The notes beneath the pieces were generated by a model that was not told the DNA's origin, did not search any database, and worked only from the letters and a program-made list of their open reading frames with translations. 64,000 nt of DNA from Alphaproteobacteria bacterium (GTDB taxonomy: Bacteria; Pseudomonadota; Alphaproteobacteria; Sphingomonadales; Sphingomonadaceae): positions 1 to 64,000 of the forward strand of contig JAHJHL010000159.1 in assembly GCA_018823905.1 (NCBI GenBank). The letters are read 5' to 3'. Shown here piece by piece: positions 41,520 to 42,575 of the stretch (positions within the stretch are counted from its first letter, which is position 1; each line of letters begins with the position of its first letter). The translations under genes were made by a program, and so were the position numbers.

Positions 41520-41779
41520 GCCCGCGCTCCCTTGGCAGATTGGCGAAAGGTCCGCGTTCGCCGGTCGCCCTGCGGCGCGACGCGGCCCGCATGACGTTCG
41601 GCGCGCCATATGTTCATGAAATGTTCCACACGGCAAATAAGCTGGCCGCCGGGTTCGCGACCGCCGCGCAAATCGCTCACCAGCTTTGGATCGCGCACCG
41701 CGGCACGGCCGAACACGGTGGGCGGCATCGCCGATTCCTTCAAAAAGGCGTCGATCCGTTGCAACAATGTGCGCTCCAT
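41516..41779 (-). CDS. Small HTH-like protein of the S24-repressor cassette (87 residues)
   Basis: The 87-residue product has LLQRIDAFLKESAMPPTVF followed by GRAAVRDPKLVSDLRGGREP, a layout I know from short alphaproteobacterial proteins with a helix-turn-helix-like segment. GGGAGG five bases before the ATG at 41779 supports this start over 41818. It is coupled to the 108-residue gene downstream and divergent from the S24-type repressor at 41907. A DNA-binding partner of the repressor is plausible but unproven. Confidence 0.65.
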   Translation of the reverse strand: MERTLLQRIDAFLKESAMPPTVFGRAAVRDPKLVSDLRGGREPGGQLICRVEHFMNIWRAERHAGRVAPQGDRRTRTFRQSAKGARA

Positions 41780-41820
41780 AACTTCCTCCCTGACCGCGTC
41801 GATAACCGGGCGACTCACCC

Positions 41821-41896
41821 GATAGGATAAATCCTATCTGATGTTCAATTTCCTACTTGTCTAGGAAAAATCCGCTTGCTAGGAACGAAATAGGAA
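41821..41896. promoter_or_regulatory. Array of TAGGA/TCCTA boxes, candidate operator of the S24 cassette
   Basis: The 76-base divergent region holds a perfect palindrome GATAGGATAAATCCTATC (41821-41838), an inverted pair TTCCTA-n6-TAGGAA (41850-41867) and two direct copies TAGGAA at 41880-41885 and 41891-41896, the last overlapping the ribosome-binding site of the repressor gene. The copies are 11 bases apart, one helical turn. Repetition of one pentamer across a divergent promoter beside an S24-type regulator is a classic autoregulatory layout. Confidence 0.65.
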
Positions 41897-41906
41897 GGAC
41901 TAGTGC

Positions 41907-42575
41907 ATGAGCGACCATGTTGCCGATCCGCGCGCCGCGCTCGACCGCCTCTTGACCGACAAGGGCATCGACTATGCGCGCCTGTCGCAGGTGATCGGGC
42001 GCAATCCCGCCTATATCCAGCAATATATCAAACGCGGTTCGCCGCGGCGGCTTGCCGAACAGGACCGGGCGCGGATCGCTGCCTATCTGGGCGTTTCCGA
42101 AGCCCTGCTCGGCGGGCCGGTGCAGCGCGTTGCAACCCCGGCGCGGATGCGCGGGCCGGGGATGATCCTGGTCCCGAAACTGGCGATCGGCGCCTCGGCG
42201 GGCGCGGGGGCCAGCGTCGAGGGTGAGCCGATCGAGGGCGAAGTCGCGTTCGATCCCAAATGGCTGCGCGACCTCGGTGCCGATCCGCGCGCGCTCAGCA
42301 TCATTCGGGTCGAGGGCGATTCGATGGCGCCGACGCTGGACGACGGCGACGACATTTTAGTCGACGGCGGCGACGCCGCGGCGCGGCTGCGCGACGGCAT
42401 CTACGTGCTGCGCATGGACGATGTGCTGATGGTCAAACGCATTGCGCGGGCACCGGGACCGGGACGCATCTCGGTGATCAGCGACAATCCGCATTACCGC
42501 AGCTGGGACGACCTGCCGATGGGATCGGTGCAACTGGTCGGCCGCGTCGTGTGGACCGGGCGGCGGGTGCGGTAA
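41907..42575 (+). CDS. S24/LexA-like repressor with HTH domain
   Basis: The 222-residue protein has an N-terminal HTH (DYARLSQVIGRNPAYIQQYI) and a C-terminal S24 peptidase domain with Ser139 in EGDSMAPT and Lys177 in MVKRIA, spaced like the LexA dyad. A Ala-Gly pair in ASAGAG around residues 97-101 could be the self-cleavage site. Such proteins repress genes until RecA or another signal triggers cleavage. The ATG follows AGGAAGG. Divergent from two small unknown genes, with TAGGA boxes between. The family assignment is solid; the inducing signal is unknown. Confidence 0.88.
   Translation: MSDHVADPRAALDRLLTDKGIDYARLSQVIGRNPAYIQQYIKRGSPRRLAEQDRARIAAYLGVSEALLGGPVQRVATPARMRGPGMILVPKLAIGASAGAGASVEGEPIEGEVAFDPKWLRDLGADPRALSIIRVEGDSMAPTLDDGDDILVDGGDAAARLRDGIYVLRMDDVLMVKRIARAPGPGRISVISDNPHYRSWDDLPMGSVQLVGRVVWTGRRVR

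Follow-up and report, generated by a model that had tools for sequence, protein, structure and literature searches.

An array of TAGGA boxes as the putative operator region of an S24 repressor switch conserved across sphingomonads

The TAGGA boxes between two divergent genes of a sphingomonad chromosome are almost certainly binding sites, here predicted from sequence, of the S24 (CI-like) repressor whose gene starts at position 41907. The array very probably contains the operators of a switch of the CI/Cro type that has become fixed in the host chromosome, with the mechanism and the origin proposed below. The window analysed is a stretch of 64,000 nucleotides and, judging from the nearest named relatives, its source genome is a Sphingopyxis. 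The gene divergent from the S24 gene encodes a small helix-turn-helix (HTH) protein and is called H, and the gene that follows it is called D.

Results

The 127-bp gap between the divergent starts at 41779 (minus strand) and 41907 (plus strand) holds six of the 19 TAGGA/TCCTA pentamers found in the whole 64-kb window. They begin at 41823, 41832, 41851, 41862, 41880 and 41891 (boxes 1 to 6), exactly where the preliminary description had placed them. A perfect 18-base palindrome had been described for the first two boxes; its 8-base arms are indeed perfect, but the central AA is non-palindromic. The inverted TTCCTA/TAGGAA pair was found as described, and so were the two TAGGAA direct repeats (41880 and 41891), the second of which lies, as had been claimed, within ATAGGAAGGA, the Shine-Dalgarno sequence of the S24 gene. 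The features of the region are collected in Table 1.

Table 1. Genes and sequence elements around the TAGGA array, with positions in the window.
Feature	Position	Strand	Remark
Gene D, 108 aa	41193..41519	-	ATGA overlap with H
Gene H, small Cro-like HTH protein, 87 aa	41516..41779	-	ATG at 41779
LexA-type box GTTCATGAAATGTTC	41612..41626	.	Inside H, codons for EHFMN
GC palindrome CGGGCGACTCACCCG	41807..41821	.	Between H and dyad 1; conserved
Dyad 1, GATAGGAT-AA-ATCCTATC (boxes 1 and 2; TAGGA-N4-TCCTA, 41823-41836)	41821..41838	.	Half-sites invariant
Everted pair TTCCTA-CTTGTC-TAGGAA (boxes 3 and 4; TCCTA-N6-TAGGA, 41851-41866)	41850..41867	.	Invariant
Presumed -35 of the S24 promoter, TTGTCT	41857..41862	+	Conservation and geometry
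Degenerate half-site TCCGC	41871..41875	.	Absent from the list in the preliminary description
Presumed -10 of the S24 promoter, TAGGAA (box 5)	41880..41885	+	TA alone conserved
Box 6, overlapping the Shine-Dalgarno of the S24 gene (TAGGAAGGA)	41891..41899	+	Intergenic alignment
S24 (CI-like) repressor gene, 222 aa	41907..42575	+	Helix motif NPAYIQQY, Ser139/Lys177 dyad, Ala98-Gly99

The S24 protein matched two families, PF00717 and, over residues 12-220, the phage repressors of PHROG_4, and its N-terminal HTH had no match from Pfam itself. In 12 diverse homologues Ser139 and Lys177 were invariant and Ala98-Gly99 was present in at least 90%, and the Ser/Lys dyad and the Ala-Gly site are in register with LexA and UmuD. 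The model of the H protein is a four-helix HTH; among its best matches in the PDB are the P22 c2 repressor and 434 Cro, none of these matches having a significant E-value. D lies downstream of H with the same ATGA overlap in most loci. No match to D was found in Pfam, PHROGs or PDB sequences, and its model, with a predicted alpha/beta fold, resembled tail terminator or completion proteins of phages weakly and without significance.

In 72 aligned Sphingopyxis intergenic regions boxes 1-4 were 99-100% conserved, and the mean conservation was 0.95 for the box columns as compared to 0.78 for the other columns. The preliminary description had staked its claim in advance on conservation in those relatives that share the gene pair, and across Sphingopyxis boxes 1-4 proved invariant. 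Of box 5 nothing but the TA was conserved in the same alignment (TAnnnA). As only the TA is kept and the box begins 17 bp after TTGTCT, box 5 is taken here for the presumed -10 hexamer in front of the S24 gene; the promoter and terminator scan returned no consensus sigma-70 promoter and no terminator. The proposal that all six boxes are repressor sites is thus retained for boxes 1-4, while box 5 is better explained as a -10 hexamer and box 6 as a Shine-Dalgarno sequence. At the position of the degenerate half-site many relatives have TCCTA, which completes another TAGGA-N4-TCCTA dyad at a distance of 39 bp from dyad 1. It was also observed that the GC palindrome can be written as CGGGCGACTC(A/G)CCCG, and that CGANTCG occurs again in 24 of 44 distant loci where about one would be expected; the palindrome is possibly an H operator or a leader hairpin.

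The S24 gene was matched in 120 of 150 relatives (E<=1e-20). In the Sphingopyxis loci examined it was nearly always accompanied by the small divergent gene H and by 4-7 upstream boxes, and in the Sphingopyxis genomes G033 and G074, which had no S24 match, the dyad was likewise absent. Upstream boxes were retained also with S24 relatives of 40-60% identity in other genera and families. Judged from a single sequence, the highest count of TAGGA/TCCTA pentamers was four when the intergenic region was dinucleotide-shuffled 20,000 times, and six were never reached. When any pentamer was permitted, six copies were reached in 5 of 3,000 shuffles. This result and the legibility of boxes 5 and 6 as promoter and ribosome-binding elements would suit a mere coincidence of such elements in an AT-rich spacer, without any specific protein, but we consider this extremely unlikely, because boxes 1-4 stay unchanged while the remaining columns diverge, and because the boxes are seen again with distant S24 homologues of phages and plasmids. 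The single-sequence statistic is good in itself, and the comparative evidence for the array is far stronger.

Which of the two HTH proteins reads the boxes was addressed by comparing non-redundant upstream regions. Boxes were present upstream of 76 of the 85 S24 genes with the helix NxxY[ILV]x[QR][FYWH], as compared to 4 of the 55 without it (Fisher 6e-24, a p-value to be taken as indicative, since the motif was written after the family had been seen and the loci are phylogenetically non-independent). Boxes also precede several S24 genes of other families with no H detected. The presence of boxes without H, together with their link to the type of S24 helix, speaks for S24 as the protein that binds them. 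The array does adjoin the gene for H, itself an HTH protein, and the GC palindrome at 41807-41821 is conserved as well, so that H could be the main binder of the TAGGA boxes and S24 could act on another element such as this palindrome; given the boxes before S24 genes without H and their association with the S24 helix motif, such a division of roles is unlikely. H too might use the TAGGA half-sites. With S24 as the reader of the boxes, autoregulation is the natural reading, because the boxes go with the S24 helix motif and lie around the presumed S24 promoter, and the best reading of the region is a predicted autoregulation of S24 combined with repression of the divergent H-D operon.

The genome was searched for further copies, from which it had been hoped that a regulon could be defined, and no regulon was found beyond the local gene pair. 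One exact dyad occurs elsewhere in this genome (C169:16982) and is probably due to chance, as no array is present there, and the exact everted pair had no second copy in this genome. In 80 Sphingopyxis genomes the exact dyad was found 0-5 times per genome, with nearly all listed sites at the S24 locus. The array thus seems, as far as can be predicted, to serve a local switch. The exceptions were kept as leads (G022/G036, G026/G049 and G034). In G026 (L159, ~3149) and G049 (L160, ~2331) NYN-domain genes have a TAGGA dyad ahead of them, in a promoter-like context common to both; in G049 the next gene after the NYN-domain gene is a phage portal gene. These sites are possibly extra repressor targets. 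Similarly, TAGGATTTTTCCTATCTTTCCTA lies upstream of a gene for the same ~1,484-aa protein in G036 (L157, ~6416) and G022 (L158, ~6012), which is another possible target.

RogA of Caulobacter crescentus is a LexA-like HTH-S24 repressor that represses gafYZ and has a very small direct regulon; two promoters bound by it carry GGAA-N4-TTCC repeats, and it is reported to be without catalytic (cleavage) residues (PMC9632790). Compared by this published description, RogA and S24 have in common the HTH-S24 architecture and dyads of the GGA...TCC type. S24 could accordingly be the sphingomonad counterpart of RogA that silences activators of a gene transfer agent (GTA), with an array that is merely autoregulatory, and the NYN-domain genes behind a TAGGA dyad, with a phage portal gene after one of them, would agree with this. 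However, the catalytic residues reported missing from RogA are invariant in the S24 homologues studied here, the dyad spacing differs by 2 bp between the sites of the two proteins, class-wide S24 matches were obtained in only 29 of 192 genomes (E<=1e-12), and no other convincing site was found in this genome. We therefore regard a RogA counterpart as very unlikely. The domain GTA_TIM (PF13547) was not found in the 150 relatives, although sphingomonad GTAs may lack that domain.

The alphaproteobacterial LexA consensus is GTTCN7GTTC (PMC12700426), and boxes of this type were found at the locus and, in this genome, also upstream of recA. Here the box is intragenic, well inside the H-D operon. Its position inside H was filled in 102 of 115 Sphingopyxis loci and in 12 others. 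Among 44 non-Sphingopyxis loci, 27 had a LexA-type box in the intergenic region between H and S24 (0.12 expected). One of these two positions was filled in 141 of 159 loci, and both together in none of the 159. The peptide EHFMN was written exactly GAA CAT TTC ATG AAC in 74 of 77 genes, against about 10% expected from the codon use of the same genes. By sequence, the LexA-type box is a part of the S24-H module, and one that the preliminary description had overlooked.

The same layout was found on mobile elements. Proviruses in IMG/VR (L286-L351) have S24 with a divergent H, and boxes in most cases, and four of them (L286-L289) additionally carry a tyrosine integrase over the cut-off. The S24/H/box layout is also present on a Bradyrhizobium plasmid. 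As the same module is found in temperate proviruses and in conjugative elements, the chromosomal copy appears domesticated. We infer that the module came from the immunity region of a temperate phage or a conjugative element, the domestication and the direction of transfer being deduced from these occurrences. Paralogous S24/H pairs with TAGGA arrays of their own, mostly with LexA-type boxes, were observed as well (L094-L102, L143, L150, L152 and L154), and in sphingomonad genomes several such pairs have a gene for TrwC relaxase or for TraG as a neighbour.

Starting from IMG/VR contigs in which S24 is close to the contig end, Mu-like prophages were traced inside H or at its edge, in at least three genera, in both orientations and with 5-bp target duplications. 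Such loci beside the array are L369-L371 (G002), L428-L434 (G374, G600 and G054) and L272-L285. Junctions with the duplication were read for four genomes belonging to three genera: TCGAT at H codon 9 (G002), TCCGG at the H/D junction (G054), CTCGA near H codon 8 (G600) and TTGGC just before the H ATG (G374). Other junctions ranged from the first H codons to just beyond the H stop, again in both orientations. Every insertion read spares S24 and the array, and none lies in D. The prophages examined encode MuA, a TniB-like (MuB/TniB-type) ATPase and a Mu portal. A site-specific integrase as the cause of the H-adjacent prophages was rejected for most of them, as most contigs had no tyrosine integrase match, and it is also countered by the MuA/MuB genes of the examined prophages. 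The Mu portal of one phage (L353:13019-15058) carries a C-terminal Acb1 (anti-CBASS) domain.

A search with MuA, which is unbiased by S24, gave two prophages in 80 Sphingopyxis genomes, both at H. In 401 genomes of the family it gave six hits, with three at H (G002, G374 and G600), two elsewhere (G445 and G619) and one without a resolved site (G649). An insertion hot spot that results from selection for the loss of D is disfavoured because there is no insertion in D itself. We suggest tentatively, as an idea that could well prove wrong, that the SOS-linked, domesticated S24-H-D switch is a targeted landing site, where Mu-like phages would be steered into H so that S24 and its operators are kept and D is cut from the upstream promoter region. 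The Mu-like phage phiA of Citromicrobium inserts, in each of the 24 strains examined, into a single hypothetical host gene and there within a 40-bp zone (PMC12486242). It is, like the prophages at H, a Mu-like transposable phage with 5-bp duplications (PMC12486242), whereas the insertions described here are in other genera and are spread over the whole of H. Our guess would be that the phiA target gene is H.

Discussion

In the switch proposed here, S24 dimers on the half-sites would cover the -35 of their own promoter, giving autoregulation, and S24 bound at the half-sites would stop transcription of H and D. DNA damage would lift the repression by S24 self-cleavage and/or by loss of LexA. 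Once released, H would act as a Cro-like counter-repressor and thus create a two-state switch.

The arrangement resembles that of lambda CI/Cro in its CI-like S24 repressor, the small divergent HTH gene and the several symmetric half-sites between them, which overlap the presumed repressor promoter as in a lambda-type region. Unlike lambda CI/Cro, it is chromosomally fixed across a bacterial family with no phage genes attached, and it has a LexA-type box, the extra gene D and an unrelated operator sequence. In the integrative conjugative elements SXT/R391 SetR is an S24 repressor of ~215 aa with four intergenic operators, autoregulation, the divergent Cro-like gene croS and a link to the SOS response (PMC4542580). 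An S24 repressor, intergenic operators and a Cro-like gene in a divergent operon are shared with the SetR/CroS pair. SetR is element-borne and controls setCD, whereas the S24 gene described here is a chromosomal copy without conjugation genes.

A large group of S24 repressors in the alphaproteobacteria now has an operator consensus, TAGGA, and a recognition-helix signature to match, NxxYxQF, with which operators on phages and conjugative elements can be predicted from their sequence. H is a candidate for the fixed integration zone that a Mu-like phage has in a related genus, and guided transposition by relatives of Mu can thereby be put to the test. The putative switch is host-fixed and conserved across sphingomonads, which may thus have retained, as a host gene throughout the group, a two-state switch of the phage type and wired it to the SOS response.
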